Shown in pieces: positions 17,756 through 26,059 of a stretch of DNA of 64,000 nt; the stretch's first letter is position 1, and each line of letters starts with the position of its first letter. Made by a program: the position numbers and the translations under genes. Below the pieces are notes generated by a model. That model did not search any database. It had not been told where the DNA came from and worked only from the letters and a program-made list of their open reading frames with translations. Origin of the DNA: Candidatus Bathyarchaeia archaeon (GTDB lineage: Archaea > Thermoproteota > Bathyarchaeia > 40CM-2-53-6 > CALIRQ01). The DNA is taken from assembly GCA_038843675.1 (NCBI GenBank), contig JAWBRV010000003.1, forward strand, positions 68,908 to 132,907, given 5' to 3'.

Positions 17756-19162
17756 ATGAGGATACCCGGAATAAGGGAGGAAGTTGTGGAGAAGCTAAAG
17801 TTCATGTTCGAACCGGATTCGGTCGCGGTGGTGGGGGCCTCGAGGGATCCGGAGAAGATAGGTTATCAATGCTTGAAGAACCTCGTCGAGGGCGGCTACG
17901 AGGGGAGGATCTATCCGATAAACCCGAACGCCGAGGAGATAATGGGGCTGAAATGCTTCCCATCGGTATTAGAGGTCCCGGGCGAGATCGACCTAGCGTT
18001 AATAGTGGTCCCGGCGAGGATAGCGAAGAAAGCGGTGGAGGATTGCGCGAGGAAGGGCGTTAGGACCGTGGCCATGATCACGGCAGGCTTCAGCGAGATA
18101 GGAAACAAGGAGGGGGAGGACGAGATAGTGAGGATATGCAGGGAGAATGGGATCCCGCTCCTCGGGCCTAATATAGTGGGGATCGCCAATAGCTGGAAGA
18201 AATGCAATGCCAGCTTCTGCCAATCCCTGCCCTATGCCGGTAAGACGGCCTTCATATCCCAAAGCGGGGCCTTGGCGATCGCCCTGATCGGCTGGACTTG
18301 GCTCTATAGGGTGGGACTCTCCTCGATGGCGAGCATAGGGAACAAGGCCGATGTGGACTTCTCGGAGCTGATACTCTATTTCGGGGAGAGGGACGAGCAT
18401 ACGAATTGCATAGCCATGTACATAGAGGGCTTGGACGCGGGCCCCGAGTTCATGGAGGCCTGTAGGAGGGTTAGCCCCAAGAAGCCGCTCGTGGCCCTCA
18501 AGGCCGGAAAATCGGAGAGAGGGGTAGCGGCCGCCGCCTCCCATACGGGATCCTTGGCGGGCGCCCCCTTGATCTATTCTGCGGCATTCAAGCAATGCGG
18601 GGTCATAGAGGTCAACTCGCTCATAGAGCTTTTCGATAGCGCCTTAGCCCTCTCCCTTCAGCCTCCCATGCTCGGGGACTTCCCCTTGATAATAACGAAT
18701 GGGGGAGGCGCGGGGGTTTGTGCTACCGATGCGGCGGAGCGCTATGGGATCCCGATATCCGATTCCCCGCCGGACCTTGCAAAGAGCTTAAGGAAGTACA
18801 TGCCCGAGTTCGGGAGCTCCAAGAACCCAGTGGATTTGACCGGGATGGGCACCGCTGATAAATACGAGGGGGCCATAAGGGAGGCCCTAGCGCATCCGGG
18901 GGTCGATGGCTTGGCGATATTATATTGCCACACTGCCATAACCTCCCCGATGAAGGTCGCTGAGGCCATCTATGGGCCATACTCGGAATTGAAGAACAAC
19001 AAGCCCATAGTGGCGGCCTTCATCGGTGGGAGCGAATGCGAGGAGGCGGCCCTATGGCTGAAGGAGAAAGGGGTGCCAGCGTTCCCCTCGCCGGAGCGGG
19101 CTATGAGGGCCTTGAGCGCCCTCAGGGCCTACGGGAGGATAAGGAAGCGCTTTGGTGGATGA
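17756..19162 (+). CDS. ADP-forming acetyl/acyl-CoA synthetase, alpha subunit
   Basis: The CoA-binding and ligase subunit of ADP-forming acyl-CoA synthetase, which turns acyl-CoA, ADP and phosphate into acid, CoA and ATP. The 468 residues show a CoA-binding Rossmann domain (DSVAVVGASRDPEKIGY), two flavodoxin-like CoA-ligase domains (FISQSGALAIALIGW and PLIITNGGGAGVCATDAAERYG) and the phosphorylated-histidine loop ASHTGSLAG. No ATP-grasp beta subunit is in the window, so the partner must lie elsewhere. It converges with the operon that contains indolepyruvate oxidoreductase and thiolase. That oxidoreductase makes aryl-acetyl-CoA, a natural substrate. Confidence 0.92.
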   Translation: MRIPGIREEVVEKLKFMFEPDSVAVVGASRDPEKIGYQCLKNLVEGGYEGRIYPINPNAEEIMGLKCFPSVLEVPGEIDLALIVVPARIAKKAVEDCARKGVRTVAMITAGFSEIGNKEGEDEIVRICRENGIPLLGPNIVGIANSWKKCNASFCQSLPYAGKTAFISQSGALAIALIGWTWLYRVGLSSMASIGNKADVDFSELILYFGERDEHTNCIAMYIEGLDAGPEFMEACRRVSPKKPLVALKAGKSERGVAAAASHTGSLAGAPLIYSAAFKQCGVIEVNSLIELFDSALALSLQPPMLGDFPLIITNGGGAGVCATDAAERYGIPISDSPPDLAKSLRKYMPEFGSSKNPVDLTGMGTADKYEGAIREALAHPGVDGLAILYCHTAITSPMKVAEAIYGPYSELKNNKPIVAAFIGGSECEEAALWLKEKGVPAFPSPERAMRALSALRAYGRIRKRFGG

Positions 19163-19168
19163 GGATCC

Positions 19169-19552
19169 TCAAGCGGGCCTGAATTTGTATCCATATTCGA
19201 TGAACCCTCCATCATTCTTGATCCTCCTGATCGCCACCTTCAACCTCATCCCCTCCCTGAGCTCCGTTGGATCGCAATCCACTATTTGGGACAAGATCCT
19301 GACGCCCTCCTTGAGCTGGACGATGCCGATCACATAAGGAGCCTGATCTTCGAAGCCCTTTGGGGGATGCCTTATGATCGTGTAAGCTACCAACTCCCCC
19401 TCCCCGCTCAGTCCCTCGCTCTCCAAATCCCTTCCGCCGCAGCGATCGCATATTGCCTTAGGTGGGAAATGAATCGCGCCGCAGCCCTTGCACCTCGCGC
19501 CCTCCAGCCTATATCTCCTCGGCGCCTCCCTTAGATAATTGGGAGCGCTCAA
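19169..19552 (-). CDS. DUF35 zinc-ribbon/OB-fold protein (acyl-CoA-binding partner of thiolase)
   Basis: A 127-residue DUF35 protein. A rubredoxin-like zinc ribbon (CKGCGAIHFPPKAICDRCG, four Cys at about residues 21-38) is followed by an OB-fold (GELVAYTIIRHPP to MRLKVAIRRI). In archaea these proteins bridge thiolase and HMG-CoA synthase and hold the CoA of the shared intermediate. It starts with TTG at 19552, one base after the thiolase stop. It is the last gene of the five-gene operon. Its end lies six bases from the end of the convergent acyl-CoA synthetase gene. Confidence 0.9.
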   Translation of the reverse strand: MSAPNYLREAPRRYRLEGARCKGCGAIHFPPKAICDRCGGRDLESEGLSGEGELVAYTIIRHPPKGFEDQAPYVIGIVQLKEGVRILSQIVDCDPTELREGMRLKVAIRRIKNDGGFIEYGYKFRPA

Positions 19553-19553
19553 T

Positions 19554-20711
19554 TCAATCGACCCTCCCCAGTATATGCGCAGTTATCGTCGTCCCGACCC
19601 CGCCAATGTTCTGAGCATATCCCCTCTCAGCGCCCTCCACCTGATTTTTGCCCGCCTCTCCCCTCAATTGCCTCACCAGCTCCACTATCTGGTATACTCC
19701 CGTAGCGCCCACGGGATGCCCCCTGGCTTTGAGGCCCCCGAAGGTATTCGTGGGTATCTTCCCGCCGATCTCTATACCCCCCTCCTTTACGAGCTCGGCC
19801 GCCTTGCCCCTTTCAGCGAACCCCAAGTCCTCTAGGGCGATCAAGCCCAGCACTGAGAAGGCGTCGTGGACCTCTAGGACATCGATGTCCTCGGCCCCTA
19901 ACCCAGCCTTCTTGAAGGCGGCCTCCGCCGAGGCTCTCGTCGCTTTGAAGCTCGTAAGATCATCCCTCTGATGCAGCGAGAACTTATCGATGCTCACGGT
20001 CGAGGCGAGGACCTCCACCGGCGCATCGATGATCTTGCGCGCATCTTCCAAGGGAGCCAGCAATACGGCGGCCGCCCCATCGCCTATGCCAGCGCATTCT
20101 AGCAAATGCAGCGGATCGGCGACGATCGGCGAGCTCATGACGGCCTCAACCGTTATGGGGAATCTGAATTGGGCGAACTCGTTATCGAGGGCGTGCTTAT
20201 GGCATATGACCGGGAAGCGCGCTATATCCTCATGCCCAACGCCATAAGCCCTCATATAGGCCCTAGCCACCAAGGCGTTTAGCCCAACGAAGCTCGTGCC
20301 CGTATACGCCGAGTATTCCTGATCCTCCGCCATTGCGAGCGCCTTCGTCGCCTCTTGGGTCGTTGCATCGGTCATCTTCTCCACGCCAACCACCAAGACC
20401 GAATCAGCGGCACCGGAGGCGATGAGCTGGCATCCCATGTGCACGGCCATCCCGCCCGATGCGCAAGCCGCCTCGATCTTCGCGGCCCCCGCGCCTTGGA
20501 GGCCGAGCGAATCCGCCACGAGGGCTCCCAGATGCTCTTGGTTCTGGAGATAGCCCGACATCATGTTCCCAACCAAGACGTAATCCACATCATAAAGCCC
20601 CACGTCCTCCATCGCCCTCAAGGAGGCCTCTACGGCCAAGTCCCTCAGGGCCTTATCCCAATGCTCCCCGACCTTCGTGCATCCTATGCCGATTATGGCG
20701 ATTCTCCTCAA
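19554..20711 (-). CDS. Thiolase (acetyl-CoA C-acyltransferase, archaeal type)
   Basis: A 385-residue thiolase of the archaeal/SCP-x type that makes or breaks 3-oxoacyl-CoA. The acyl-accepting Cys lies in EAACASGGMA (near residue 84). HDAFS follows near residue 290, and GGLKARGHPVGATG carries the catalytic His near 345. So the active site looks complete. It overlaps the upstream HMG-CoA synthase-like gene by four bases (TTGA) and is followed after one base by the DUF35 gene. The gene order is that of the mevalonate-pathway complex, yet it sits behind iorAB. Confidence 0.92.
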   Translation of the reverse strand: MRRIAIIGIGCTKVGEHWDKALRDLAVEASLRAMEDVGLYDVDYVLVGNMMSGYLQNQEHLGALVADSLGLQGAGAAKIEAACASGGMAVHMGCQLIASGAADSVLVVGVEKMTDATTQEATKALAMAEDQEYSAYTGTSFVGLNALVARAYMRAYGVGHEDIARFPVICHKHALDNEFAQFRFPITVEAVMSSPIVADPLHLLECAGIGDGAAAVLLAPLEDARKIIDAPVEVLASTVSIDKFSLHQRDDLTSFKATRASAEAAFKKAGLGAEDIDVLEVHDAFSVLGLIALEDLGFAERGKAAELVKEGGIEIGGKIPTNTFGGLKARGHPVGATGVYQIVELVRQLRGEAGKNQVEGAERGYAQNIGGVGTTITAHILGRVD

Positions 20712-21745
20712 GCCGATCCCCTTGAATTGCGGATGAATTTCAAGTAGGCCCTATAATCGATGCAGACCTTCCTTGAGATTTGGTTCAGGAAGTCCCCCCT
20801 CTCGCGCTCCTTTATTGCGTCCTTCACCAAGAGGCTGAAGGAATCGCTCCCGGCCCCGCTCCCGAAGGTCGCCACCAATATCCTCTCGGATGGCTTCGCC
20901 ACATCCAAGACCGCAATCAGGCCCAGCAATCCCGAAAGGGCCTCCACGTTGCCCGCCCTTGGGAGAAGGAACCCGGCCTCGATCTGCTCGGGTTTGAAGC
21001 CGAGCCTTTTGGCCAAGCCGGATGCGGACTTGGGATCATTTTGCGGCAATACTACGTGGTCGAAATCCTTAGGGCTTAGGCCGAGCCCGCTCAGGAGATC
21101 CTCCACGGAGGCCGTTACGCATTGGGCCAAGACCCTTTCGGCAAAGCGCCCGCTGTCCCTCCTCCGAGCCGACCCCCTCACCGACCAAACATCGAGCGCG
21201 TCTATCACCCAAGTCGAGCTTCCCTCAATTGAGGCTATTGAGCTATCGGTTTCGCGCCCGATCACAAAGGCGGCGGCCCCACAGGAGGAATATGCCGCAC
21301 CCTCCTCCAAAGGCTCCAGCGGGATCGAGTCAGAACCGGCGGCTATGGCGAAATCCATCATCCCGCTGCCCACGAGCCCCAAGCATAGCTGAACGGCCTC
21401 GGAGCAGGATTTGCCTGAGAAGCTTATATCGGCCGCGAGGATCGCCCCTTCCATCCCCAAGGCCTTCGATAAAATGGTCCCAATGGGCTTTTCCAAATAG
21501 GGATTGGAGGAGGTTCCGCAGAGGATCGATCCGATCTTGCTCCTTTCAACGCCAGCCATCCTCAAAGCCTTCTCGATCGCCTCCTTCGCCATTGTCACGG
21601 CGTCTTCATCCGGGCCGCAGATCGCCTTCTCGAAATCTGGTGGGGGAGATCCATGGGCCAGTGGGAGGTCCCGGATCCTTATCCTGTACTTTGGCAGATA
21701 GGCCCCGAATCCCTCGATCCCCGTTCGGGTATGGGTCCTGAACAA
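20708..21745 (-). CDS. HMG-CoA synthase-like protein lacking the catalytic triad
   Basis: A 345-residue protein with clear similarity along its whole length to archaeal HMG-CoA synthase, for example in KPIGTILSKALG and LVATFGSGAGSDSFSLLV. The three catalytic residues appear to be lost. The Glu of GSESHPYAVKP is Ser79 here (GTSSNPYLEKP). The Cys of FACKAGTEA is Gly111 (FSGKSCSEA). The His of VFHQPNGK is Pro234 (VLPQNDPK). A Cys at 114 may be a coincidence. It probably no longer condenses acetyl-CoA and may be a scaffold for the thiolase and DUF35 proteins encoded next to it. It starts with TTG three bases after iorB ends. Confidence 0.82.
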   Translation of the reverse strand: MFRTHTRTGIEGFGAYLPKYRIRIRDLPLAHGSPPPDFEKAICGPDEDAVTMAKEAIEKALRMAGVERSKIGSILCGTSSNPYLEKPIGTILSKALGMEGAILAADISFSGKSCSEAVQLCLGLVGSGMMDFAIAAGSDSIPLEPLEEGAAYSSCGAAAFVIGRETDSSIASIEGSSTWVIDALDVWSVRGSARRRDSGRFAERVLAQCVTASVEDLLSGLGLSPKDFDHVVLPQNDPKSASGLAKRLGFKPEQIEAGFLLPRAGNVEALSGLLGLIAVLDVAKPSERILVATFGSGAGSDSFSLLVKDAIKERERGDFLNQISRKVCIDYRAYLKFIRNSRGSA

Positions 21746-21746
21746 T

Positions 21747-22352
21747 CTAATAGCCCTCGATGGCCCTTATGCCCTCCTCGAAGGCCTTCAAATTGGCCTC
21801 CTCGGTCCCCTTTGGGACGTTCCTCCTTATCGATTCCTCCATCGCCCTCCTCGAGATCGGGGGCTTGGCAACCGCATAGAGGGCGCCCACCATGACGATG
21901 CTGAGCATATTTGGATTCCCAAGACTCTTAGCGATCCCAGTGCCGTCTATTATATAAACCCTCTCGGCCGAGGATCTTGCGGCCTCCATCATGGCCTCGT
22001 AATCCGGATATCTCTCCAAACCGATCCTTGAGGTGACCGGGAGGATCGGCTCACTATTGACGATTCCGAATCCCCCATCCCCCTTCAGATATTCGCAGTG
22101 TCTCAGGAACTCCATAGGCTCGAATCCGACTATCCCATCGGCCATCCCCTTGGGTATCAATGGCGAATGGATGCCTCGCCCAATCCTAATGTGGCTCACC
22201 ACGATGCCCCCCCTTTGGGCCAGCCCCCTAGATTCGGCAATCCTCACGCTCAAGCCCTCCTCAACGGCCGCCTCCCCTATGATCGTCGATGATAAGATGA
22301 CGCCTTGCCCGCCGACGCCTGCCAATATCACGTTGAGATTTTCCCTCATCAT
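21747..22352 (-). CDS. iorB: Indolepyruvate ferredoxin oxidoreductase, beta subunit
   Basis: The gamma-domain subunit of indolepyruvate:ferredoxin oxidoreductase, which oxidises aryl pyruvates to aryl-acetyl-CoA. Its hallmark is near the N-terminus: NVILAGVGGQGVILSSTIIGEAA, followed by ESRGLAQRGGIVVSHIRIG. The start is placed at ATG 22352, because it overlaps the iorA stop as ATGATGA. A longer upstream frame would run deep into iorA. At 201 residues the length is normal. It is translated directly after iorA, and the HMG-CoA synthase-like gene starts just after its stop. Confidence 0.92.
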   Translation of the reverse strand: MMRENLNVILAGVGGQGVILSSTIIGEAAVEEGLSVRIAESRGLAQRGGIVVSHIRIGRGIHSPLIPKGMADGIVGFEPMEFLRHCEYLKGDGGFGIVNSEPILPVTSRIGLERYPDYEAMMEAARSSAERVYIIDGTGIAKSLGNPNMLSIVMVGALYAVAKPPISRRAMEESIRRNVPKGTEEANLKAFEEGIRAIEGY

Positions 22353-24226
22353 ACCTCCACCTGGGCTATGGCCTTGGAGGGGCAGATCTGGGCGCATACG
22401 CCGCAACCCGTGCAGGAGTACTTATCTATGGATATCTTCCCATCCTCGATTGAGATTGCTGGGCATCCGAACTGGGATAGGCAGATCTTGCAGGCGGTGC
22501 ACCTCGTCGGATCCACCGCGTACGGCCTCGGCCGCTCGCCCCTCCGCCTCAGCCTCCCCATCTCCCTGACCGCGCACTCATGCCTCGATACCACTACGGC
22601 CGGGCCTGGGAATTTTATCGCCGATTCTATCGCCTCTATCAGCTCCCCAACCTTGAAGGAATCAACGACCTTTACGAACTCAACCCCGCATGCCTTGCAT
22701 ATTTCCTCGACGTTCAATCTCCTAGTTTCCTCTCCCATTGCGTTCATCCCCGTTGCGGGATTGGGCTGGAAGCCTGTCATGGAGGTCCAGCTATTGTCGA
22801 ATATCACGACCGTTATATTCGCATTATTATGAACGGCGTTTATCAACGGCGGGATGCCAGCATGGAAGAATGTCGATTCCCCTATAACCGCGACTATGGG
22901 TTCCTTCACCCCAGCCTTATAAAACCCGCATGCCATCCCTATGCTGGCCCCCATGCATATGCAAGTATCGTATCCATTGAGCGGCGGATATATTCCTTGG
23001 TTATAGCAACCCCTATCCCCAGCGATTATGCCCCCCTTATTGATCCTTCTCAAGGCTTGTTTAATCGAATAATAGCTGGCTCTGTGGGGGCAGCCGGCGC
23101 ATAGGAAGGGAGTCCTCCTACCGATCTCCAGCTGAACTGCTTTCGGCTTGGCGAGGAGGCCGGGTCTTGGATTGCCCAAGCCGGCGATCTTGGAGATCGC
23201 GCCGGCCACGATGTCTGGATTAAGCTCCCATTGGAGGGGGATATGCCCGGTGGACCTGCCATAAACCTTGACCGGGATCCCCTCCGCTTGCGCTATCGCC
23301 TTAACGCCCTCCTCCGTTATCGGCTCTATCTCCTCAACCACCAAGCATTCCTTAAGGCCCCTCAGGAAGTTCGCCACGAGCCTCTTGGGGATCGGGTTCG
23401 CGGAGGAGAGCTTGAGGATCGGGGCCTCTATCCCGAGGATCCCGAGGGCCTCCTTGACGTATGAATAGTTCAACCCGTTGGCTATTATGCCGAAGTCCCC
23501 CCTTGGCCCCTCGATCCAATTGAGCGGGAAGCTCTCCATTGCCTCCGCGGCCTTCGCATATTGGTTATTTAGCCATAGATGCCTCTCCCTCGCGTGCGGC
23601 GCTATGACGGCATATCTCTTCGGATCCTTCTCGAACTTGGGCTCCCTATCCTTCCTTCGCATTTCCCCGAGCTCCACATCTCCTCTAGAATGGGATATTC
23701 GGGAGGTCAGCCTGACGACTATCGGCAATTGCAAGGACTCGGAGAGATCGAAGGCCATCGGTATTATCTTCCTAGCCTCGTCGGGATCCGATGGCTCGAG
23801 GCAGGGGACCTTCCCCATCTTGGAGTAGTATCTCGTATCCTCGGCGTTTTGGGAGCTATGGGGATGGGGATCGTCGGAGACGACTACGACCAACCCGCCA
23901 TTAACTCCCGTGTAAGCTGAAACCAAGAAGGCATCGGAGATCCAATTGAAGCCCAAATGCTTGCAGGCCATCAAGGCCCTAATGCCGGAGAGCGATGCTG
24001 CGAACGCGACCTCGAAGGCGACTTTCTCATTTATGGACCATTCCGCATAAATGCCGACCTTCTTGGCAACCGCGGCTATGGAGCTGAGGATCTCAGAGGC
24101 AGGGGTCCCTGGATAAGATGTCGCGACCTTCACGCCCGCCTCTATCGCTCCGCGCGCCACCGCGCCATTCCCGGTCATCAGGACCCTCTTGCCCATGGAA
24201 TCGAGCGTAAGGTAATCGGTTTCCAT
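22349..24226 (-). CDS. iorA: Indolepyruvate ferredoxin oxidoreductase, alpha subunit
   Basis: The catalytic subunit of 625 residues. It has the pyrimidine-binding domain (MTGNGAVARGAIEAGVKVATSYPGTPASE), a transketolase-like middle domain, and the thiamine-diphosphate-binding domain with the [4Fe-4S]-type start RRTPFLCAGCPHR. GDRGCYNQGI follows. The C-terminal ferredoxin domain holds two cluster motifs, CTACKICLSQFGCP and CTGCGVCAQICP. Products are aryl-acetyl-CoA and reduced ferredoxin from aromatic amino acid breakdown. It is the first gene of the operon. ATG 24226 or, ten codons on, ATG 24196 may be the start. Confidence 0.95.
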   Translation of the reverse strand: METDYLTLDSMGKRVLMTGNGAVARGAIEAGVKVATSYPGTPASEILSSIAAVAKKVGIYAEWSINEKVAFEVAFAASLSGIRALMACKHLGFNWISDAFLVSAYTGVNGGLVVVVSDDPHPHSSQNAEDTRYYSKMGKVPCLEPSDPDEARKIIPMAFDLSESLQLPIVVRLTSRISHSRGDVELGEMRRKDREPKFEKDPKRYAVIAPHARERHLWLNNQYAKAAEAMESFPLNWIEGPRGDFGIIANGLNYSYVKEALGILGIEAPILKLSSANPIPKRLVANFLRGLKECLVVEEIEPITEEGVKAIAQAEGIPVKVYGRSTGHIPLQWELNPDIVAGAISKIAGLGNPRPGLLAKPKAVQLEIGRRTPFLCAGCPHRASYYSIKQALRRINKGGIIAGDRGCYNQGIYPPLNGYDTCICMGASIGMACGFYKAGVKEPIVAVIGESTFFHAGIPPLINAVHNNANITVVIFDNSWTSMTGFQPNPATGMNAMGEETRRLNVEEICKACGVEFVKVVDSFKVGELIEAIESAIKFPGPAVVVSRHECAVREMGRLRRRGERPRPYAVDPTRCTACKICLSQFGCPAISIEDGKISIDKYSCTGCGVCAQICPSKAIAQVEV

Positions 24227-24381: not shown

Positions 24382-25743
24382 ATGGGGCTCAAAATCCTTT
24401 CGCTGAATGGCATATTGGGATACGGTTATGCTGAAGTTTCCCTGAGAAACGGATTGGAGGAAGATCCGGACGTAATAGGCGTCGATGCCGGATCGACCGA
24501 TCCGGGGCCCTACTACCTCGGGGCCGGGGTTTCCTTCACATCCAGGGCCGGCGTAAAGAGGGATTTGGAGCTGGCCCTCCCGGAGGCTGTGGAGAGGGGG
24601 ATCCCCTTCATAATAGGTACCGCCGGCGGCTCAGGGGGTGAGCCCCACATCGAATGGAATAAGAGGATAATAGAGGAAATCGCCGAAGAAAAGGGATTGA
24701 AGTTTAGGATGGCCGTTATACACTCGGAGATAGGGAAGGATTACCTCAAGGAGAAAATCAGGAGGGGTGAGGTGAAGCCCTTGGGTCCGATAAAGGAGCT
24801 CGAGGAGAGGGACGTCGATGAGGCCGTCAGGATAGTTGGGCAGATGGGATCCACTCCCTATATCGAGGCCCTGAGGGGCGGAGCCGAGGTCATATTGGCC
24901 GGGAGGTCCTGCGATACGGCGATATTTGCCGCGTTGCCATTGATGAAGGGCTACGATCCGGGGTTGGTTTGGCATATGGCCAAAATAATAGAATGCGGCG
25001 CCATGTGCGCAACGCCCGGCTCCGCGGCCGATTCCATAATGGCTTACTTAGAGAAGGATTACTTCCTGCTGAAACCATTGAACCCCATTAGGAGATGCGT
25101 CCCGGTTTCCGTCGCCGCCCATACGCTTTATGAACAACCAGATCCATACTATATCTACGAGCCCGATGGAATGATGGATCTTTCGCAAAGCAAATTCGAG
25201 CAATACGATGAGAGGACCGTGAAGGTCAGCGGTAGCAAATTCATTCCATCGGAGGGCATATGGAGAATAAAGCTCGAGGGGGTGAAGATGTCTGGATATA
25301 GGACCATATCAATCGCCGGCGTCAGGGACCCGATAATGATATCGAGAATAGAGGAGGTCACGAGGGCGGTCGAGGATATAACTAGGGAGGACCTGAAAGG
25401 GAAGTTCCAGCCCGGGGATTATAGGTTGCACTTCCGCATATACGGAAAGAATGGGGTCATGGGCGAGATGGAGCCCTTGGATGTTAAGGCCCATGAGCTC
25501 TGCATAATAATAGAGGCGATAGCCAAGACCAAGGAGATGGCCGATGCTGTTTGCGCCGTCGCGAGGTCGACCATGCTACATTATCATTATGAGGGGAGGA
25601 AAGCCACGGCGGGGAACTTGGCGTTCCCGTATTCACCATCCGATATATCGATGGGACCGACGTATGCGTTCAACATATATCACTTGATGGAGGTCCGGGA
25701 CCCAAGCGAGCCCTTCCCGATAGAGTATGTGGATGTGGGGTGA
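24382..25743 (+). CDS. AtuA-like (DUF1446) acyclic terpene utilisation family protein
   Basis: A 453-residue protein of the DUF1446/AtuA family. Recognisable elements are the N-terminal LSLNGILGYGYA, VIGVDAGSTDPGPYYLG, FIIGTAGGSGGEPH, and VILAGRSCDTAIFAALPL. The family was named from terpene (citronellol) breakdown in Pseudomonas, but the reaction of this protein is not established. In many genomes it is followed by, or fused to, a DUF4387 protein, and the same pair occurs here. It diverges from the indolepyruvate oxidoreductase operon, which suggests a role in acyl-CoA or hydroxyacid metabolism. That link is inference. Confidence 0.82.
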   Translation: MGLKILSLNGILGYGYAEVSLRNGLEEDPDVIGVDAGSTDPGPYYLGAGVSFTSRAGVKRDLELALPEAVERGIPFIIGTAGGSGGEPHIEWNKRIIEEIAEEKGLKFRMAVIHSEIGKDYLKEKIRRGEVKPLGPIKELEERDVDEAVRIVGQMGSTPYIEALRGGAEVILAGRSCDTAIFAALPLMKGYDPGLVWHMAKIIECGAMCATPGSAADSIMAYLEKDYFLLKPLNPIRRCVPVSVAAHTLYEQPDPYYIYEPDGMMDLSQSKFEQYDERTVKVSGSKFIPSEGIWRIKLEGVKMSGYRTISIAGVRDPIMISRIEEVTRAVEDITREDLKGKFQPGDYRLHFRIYGKNGVMGEMEPLDVKAHELCIIIEAIAKTKEMADAVCAVARSTMLHYHYEGRKATAGNLAFPYSPSDISMGPTYAFNIYHLMEVRDPSEPFPIEYVDVG

Positions 25744-25750
25744 TGGAATC

Positions 25751-26059
25751 TTGGCCAAATTGATAGAGCTTGCGCGTGTGCTCAGGAGCAAGAACGCCAA
25801 GGTCCTCCAGCTTACGTTCGATATAATGTTCGATAAAAAGGAGAACTACGAAAGGGTCAAGAACTCCGGGGTACTCACGGAGAGGCTTATATCAAAGCTC
25901 TATAAGGTGAGGGAGGAGGATGTAAGGATAATAAACTACGACTTCGCGATGGCGATAAAGATAACGATACCGAGGAGGTACCCATGTGGAGATGAGATGG
26001 ATACGGATATATATGGCGCTCAGCAACATGCGCCCTTGATAGATATAGAGATCCCATGA
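25751..26059 (+). CDS. DUF4387 family protein, partner of the AtuA-like protein
   Basis: A protein of 102 residues starting MAKLIELARVLRSKNAKVLQ. It contains LTFDIMFDKKENYERVKNSG and ends in the conserved YDFAMAIKITIPRR and GDEMDTDIYGAQQHAPLIDIEIP. These are family features of DUF4387. I place the start at TTG 25751, since GGGGTGATGG lies six bases before it; an upstream start at 25727 would overlap the AtuA gene and has no such site. It is certainly translated with the AtuA-like gene, and the two probably form one enzyme. Function unknown. Confidence 0.82.
   Translation: MAKLIELARVLRSKNAKVLQLTFDIMFDKKENYERVKNSGVLTERLISKLYKVREEDVRIINYDFAMAIKITIPRRYPCGDEMDTDIYGAQQHAPLIDIEIP

Follow-up and report, generated by a model that had tools for sequence, protein, structure and literature searches.

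The archaeal thiolase/HMG-CoA synthase (HMGCS) complex is a known example of an enzyme assembly in which an intermediate is passed through a common CoA site. What becomes of such a complex when its synthase half has lost the catalytic residues, and why would the gene be kept? This question is raised by an operon in a window of 64,000 nt (the whole stretch of DNA analyzed, to which coordinates refer unless another contig or locus is named) from Candidatus Bathyarchaeia archaeon, assembly GCA_038843675.1, contig JAWBRV010000003.1. The features of the locus are:

17756..19162, + strand: ADP-forming acyl-CoA synthetase alpha subunit, convergent with the operon
19169..19552, - strand: DUF35 protein with zinc ribbon and OB fold, nearest to 6ESQ chain E
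19554..20711, - strand: thiolase of the PRK06064/SCP2 type, Cys83 and His332 intact
20708..21745, - strand: HMGCS paralogue without catalytic Glu, Cys and His (345 aa, TTG start)
21044..21046, - strand: Pro234 codon, catalytic His position (6ESQ alignment and congeners)
21413..21415, - strand: Gly111 codon, catalytic Cys position (6ESQ alignment and congeners)
21509..21511, - strand: Ser79 codon, catalytic Glu position, Thr in genome G001 (6ESQ alignment and congeners)
21747..22406, - strand: iorB, indolepyruvate:ferredoxin oxidoreductase beta subunit
22349..24226, - strand: iorA, alpha subunit of the same enzyme
24382..26059, + strand: AtuA-like gene (24382-25743) and DUF4387 gene (25727-26059), divergent from iorA

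The order iorA-iorB-HMGCS-thiolase-DUF35 is tightly packed, with a 4-base overlap between HMGCS and the thiolase start and single-base gaps between HMGCS and iorB and between the thiolase and DUF35. The first-pass annotation was right in describing a tight operon with a DUF35 protein and a catalytically intact thiolase. Genes for all three subunits are adjacent, as in the thiolase/HMGCS/DUF35 complex. The listed start of iorB overlaps iorA, and the real start may lie further in. Besides the genus-specific window iorA, the genome of the window (G000) has another copy at G000:C1:6080-7882. The acyl-CoA synthetase alpha gene adjoins the operon in all three species of the genus. The AtuA-like/DUF4387 pair also adjoins iorA in G002.

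In an alignment with 6ESQ, a solved archaeal HMGCS, Ser79, Gly111 and Pro234 of the window protein occupy the positions of the catalytic Glu, Cys and His, exactly as numbered in the first-pass annotation. In this alignment the three positions are matched by no other Cys, His or Glu, and a realignment that would bring one into place was rejected, since there are no gaps near any of them; Cys114, three residues after Gly111, is invariant. Orthologs from two other species of the genus (87% and 76% identity) carry S/G/P and T/G/P, respectively. An error of sequencing or assembly in these codons was also rejected, since the same pattern is present in three assemblies, and its repetition in two further species makes such an error very unlikely. 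The Glu/Cys/His triad is intact in 71 of 76 aligned locus sequences; this genus accounts for three of the five exceptions and a single further genome, G039, for two.

The loss extends well beyond the triad. Among 58 columns that are near-invariant in active archaeal HMGCS (defined on the 71 intact sequences), 23 are changed in the window protein, 20 of them outside the triad, and 35 are kept. Lost columns include E79, E108, C111, R188, R189, P195, H197, H234, P236, Y268 and S296, while N266, D139 and most glycines are retained. By comparison, the partner thiolase keeps 36 of 37 near-invariant columns and DUF35 keeps 18 of 21. An AlphaFold model of the window HMGCS (pLDDT 87.5, pTM 0.90) finds the HMGCS of 6ET9/6ESQ as its best Foldseek match (TM 0.89), with PhlA at 0.83-0.86 and MucABC at 0.82; among PDB sequences, 6ESQ is likewise best (213.7 bits), followed by PhlA of the PhlACB acyltransferase (159.7 bits). 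The active site is gutted and the fold is kept, so that the earlier statement on good preservation outside the catalytic residues holds for the fold and fails for the active site. The protein passes the NCBIfam HMG-CoA synthase model PRK04262 (290.7 bits, cut-off 244), which would label it as an HMG-CoA synthase, and falls short of TIGR00748 (240 bits, cut-off 353).

Between congeners, the window HMGCS gene has a dN/dS of ~0.19 (NG86) and is thus maintained under purifying selection, and its product is among the fastest-evolving proteins of the operon. Its stem branch carries 1.8-2.5 changes per site versus ~0.4 for its thiolase, which groups with the operon thiolases of relatives in the class. 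A scan of named genomes recovered just two relatives, on CALIRQ010000009.1 (uncultured archaeon) and JAPWUR010000044.1 (Candidatus Bathyarchaeota, RSWS8). Of the paralogues with the Ser/Gly/Pro pattern next to iorAB that the first-pass annotation had proposed to look for, only those of the two congeners came to light (one of them with Thr in place of Ser), and none of the iorA loci examined in other genera is linked to such a trio. As far as searched, the iorAB-linked dead HMGCS is confined to one genus of Bathyarchaeota, with three known species.

Statements on gene content rest on searches of the window's own genome (1.36 Mb, 97.7% complete, 20 contigs). These recovered one other HMGCS (match at C1:239467-240411), answering the earlier suggestion that an intact second copy be sought: it is a 534-aa HMGCS-DUF35 fusion (L040:8993-10597) of the same family, 28-31% identical to the window HMGCS; its catalytic motifs are intact, and its C-terminal region matches the window DUF35 protein at 33%. 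No thiolase adjoins the fusion gene. Long HMGCS reading frames, of about 500-560 aa, occur commonly in the class. An HMG-CoA reductase is also encoded. A search with the thiolase as query and with Pfam Thiolase_N found the window thiolase as the only thiolase in the 20-contig assembly, the remaining Thiolase_N matches being the two HMGCS; the sister species have one thiolase match each. Since HMGCS and HMG-CoA reductase are both encoded and no second thiolase was found, the window thiolase probably serves the mevalonate pathway. Other families of the order have fusion-type HMGCS together with thiolase-DUF35 pairs, whose thiolases are ~40-45% identical to that of the window. HMGCS was not seen beside these DUF35-adjacent thiolases, and such a thiolase therefore need not have an HMGCS partner. 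Judging by gene content, the loss is reciprocal: the genus lacks the order's own type of thiolase, and the window complex lacks synthase chemistry.

Several characterized systems bear on how such a trio might work. The 6ESQ complex consists of the same three proteins and is the best match of the window HMGCS in sequence and structure, the best sequence match of DUF35 and a close match of the thiolase; HMGCS of the 6ESQ type has Glu82 and Cys114 (PMC6392133), whereas the window protein is without Glu, Cys and His. A close precedent, absent from the first-pass annotation, is PhlA of PhlACB (the DAPG acyltransferase of Pseudomonas protegens, 5M3K/5MG5; also CsATase of Chromobacterium, 9SKH), an HMGCS-fold subunit with thiolase and DUF35 partners, encoded in the same gene order, in which the A subunit is dead and the thiolase Cys and His are intact. 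In PhlA the Cys is replaced by Gly115 and the Glu by Cys83, and catalysis is carried out by PhlC residues only (PMC6392133); in our alignment the catalytic His position is Gln. PhlA and the window HMGCS differ in sequence (32% identity) and in setting: PhlACB is without CoA-binding residues, acylates phenols and has PhlD in its cluster, whereas the window protein is archaeal and lies in an iorAB operon. The long N-terminal tail of PhlB is absent from the window DUF35 protein, in which residue 8 aligns with residue 21 of PhlB and residue 7 of 6ESQ chain E. The MucABC acyltransferase of Streptococcus macacae (9VBO/9VBT) likewise combines thiolase-like, KAS III/HMGCS-like and PhlB-like subunits and is more distant from the window HMGCS (Foldseek ranks 8-10, about 19% identity). 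The benzoylsuccinyl-CoA thiolase BbsAB (7PXP) pairs a thiolase with DUF35, as in the window; however, it has no HMGCS subunit among the matched chains, and the window thiolase and DUF35 score far under the cut-offs of the BbsB and BbsA models. With PhlA as precedent, a trio of this sort with a dead HMGCS is not novel in kind; what is new is the archaeal case and the reciprocal pattern.

Quick trees join the window HMGCS to PhlA (support 90 and 98), through long branches. Trees that place it with bathyarchaeal HMGCS have a slightly better likelihood and are not rejected (p-AU 0.60-0.63). The long-branch nature of the join and the acceptable bathyarchaeal placement suggest that catalytic loss in this genus probably arose separately from that in PhlA.

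We consider it reasonably probable that the window HMGCS is a dead synthase retained as a structural subunit that shares the CoA site, leaving the thiolase as the only working active site of the complex. Solved structures of homologous complexes show DUF35 as the link between thiolase and HMGCS (or PhlA), and a CoA site common to the thiolase and HMGCS (PMC12329534; PMC6392133); a dead half may therefore still be needed. The mirror cases described below, among which no pair has both halves dead, also speak for this reading. We infer that the three window proteins assemble, that the thiolase depends on the HMGCS to assemble or to bind CoA, and that acetyl-CoA/acetoacetyl-CoA is the substrate. 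The thiolase would most likely make acetoacetyl-CoA, which would be released to the separate HMGCS-DUF35 fusion rather than handed to its own partner, and the fusion would make HMG-CoA; the HMGCS half of the complex may have been retired once the fusion took over mevalonate synthesis. The simplest account of the gene content of this genome is a division of labor, with acetoacetyl-CoA coming from the trio and HMG-CoA from the fusion. Three points count against this explanation: the order's other DUF35-adjacent thiolases have no HMGCS seen beside them, the iorAB linkage is not accounted for by a role in the mevalonate pathway, and acetoacetyl-CoA may come from another route or from a thiolase that the assembly lacks.

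The iorAB linkage is the starting point of a different reading, in which the three proteins form either an acyltransferase like PhlACB or a dedicated ketoacyl-CoA thiolase, acting on iorAB-made (aryl or branched) acyl-CoAs, and the HMGCS serves as a dead conduit giving the substrate channel its shape. We regard this as rather unlikely. It would fit the operon's second, genus-specific iorAB, the acyl-CoA synthetase gene alongside in every species of the genus and the existence of PhlACB itself, with the same families, gene order and dead A subunit; a dead-HMGCS trio of G039 also lies amid beta-oxidation and methylmalonyl-CoA mutase genes. However, the thiolase is an ordinary operon thiolase by its conserved columns and short stem and, as the only one found beside HMGCS and HMG-CoA reductase, probably must serve the mevalonate pathway; the DUF35 protein is without the PhlB tail, and the trio occurs in no other iorA neighborhood examined. 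In its most specific form, the operon would encode a new archaeal enzyme, C-acylating or forming or cleaving ketoacyl-CoA, fed by iorAB-derived acyl-CoAs and with a dead HMGCS conduit, as an independent parallel to PhlACB; this we hold to be improbable. The first-pass annotation had offered two alternatives, a pseudoenzyme kept as scaffold or CoA channel and an enzyme with new chemistry. The former is well supported by the loss of the triad and 20 further columns, the retained fold, thiolase and DUF35, and the intact second HMGCS; the latter has no positive support past the iorAB linkage, given the normal signature of the operon thiolase and its status as the sole thiolase found, and new iorAB-linked chemistry is the less likely.

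It is very unlikely that the window HMGCS is an enzyme working through its own novel, non-canonical active site. Purifying selection and six cysteines invariant in the three species (Cys 43, 76, 114, 121, 155 and 209) would agree with it; yet the losses center on the catalytic motifs, where no new conserved Cys-His-Glu set is present, and the protein has evolved much faster than its partners since its split from active HMGCS. That lost active site and rapid divergence between congeners could also mark a decaying relic without a role, carried along by the operon. We give this little credence, however, as the gene is full length and free of stops in three species at 76-87% identity, and its dN/dS is low.

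The retention of one dead half is not peculiar to this genus. We read 63 adjacent HMGCS-thiolase pairs, a phylogenetically clustered sample drawn by similarity to the window HMGCS, so that the proportions are biased: both active sites are intact in 20 pairs, an intact HMGCS stands beside a thiolase whose Cys is substituted or absent (and whose His is often substituted as well) in 38, a dead HMGCS beside an intact thiolase in 5, and both are dead in none. Parsimony requires at least five changes of thiolase Cys state on the tree. The presence of such an operon thus proves neither HMG-CoA synthase nor thiolase activity, and annotating either enzyme from its operon position or from family models can be misleading. 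Complexes with a dead synthase and their relatives with a dead thiolase constitute matched natural knock-outs for the need for a scaffold and the fate of channeling. An incomplete search of the literature yielded no account of archaeal complexes in which the HMGCS or the thiolase half is dead.

The mirror-image cases, next to intact HMGCS, occur in many Bathyarchaeia and in other members of the phylum (loci L005, L008, L010, L011, L014, L048, L053, L063-L067, L070, L071, L075, L079 and others); the catalytic Cys of these thiolases is replaced by Ser, Gln, Asp, Ala or Gly, and the His often by Asn or Ala. Both arrangements are found within G039, which has three trios, one with a live HMGCS and a dead thiolase and two with a dead HMGCS (T/S/Y and T/M/P) and a live thiolase. 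The T/S/Y trio (L042:3815-12168) is found with genes for enoyl-CoA hydratase, 3-hydroxyacyl-CoA dehydrogenase, methylmalonyl-CoA mutase subunits and a B12-binding protein; these beta-oxidation and mutase neighbors suggest that its thiolase is likely degradative, with a dead HMGCS as partner. In the T/M/P trio (L043:7401-10169), the dead HMGCS is fused to DUF35 and adjoins an intact thiolase.
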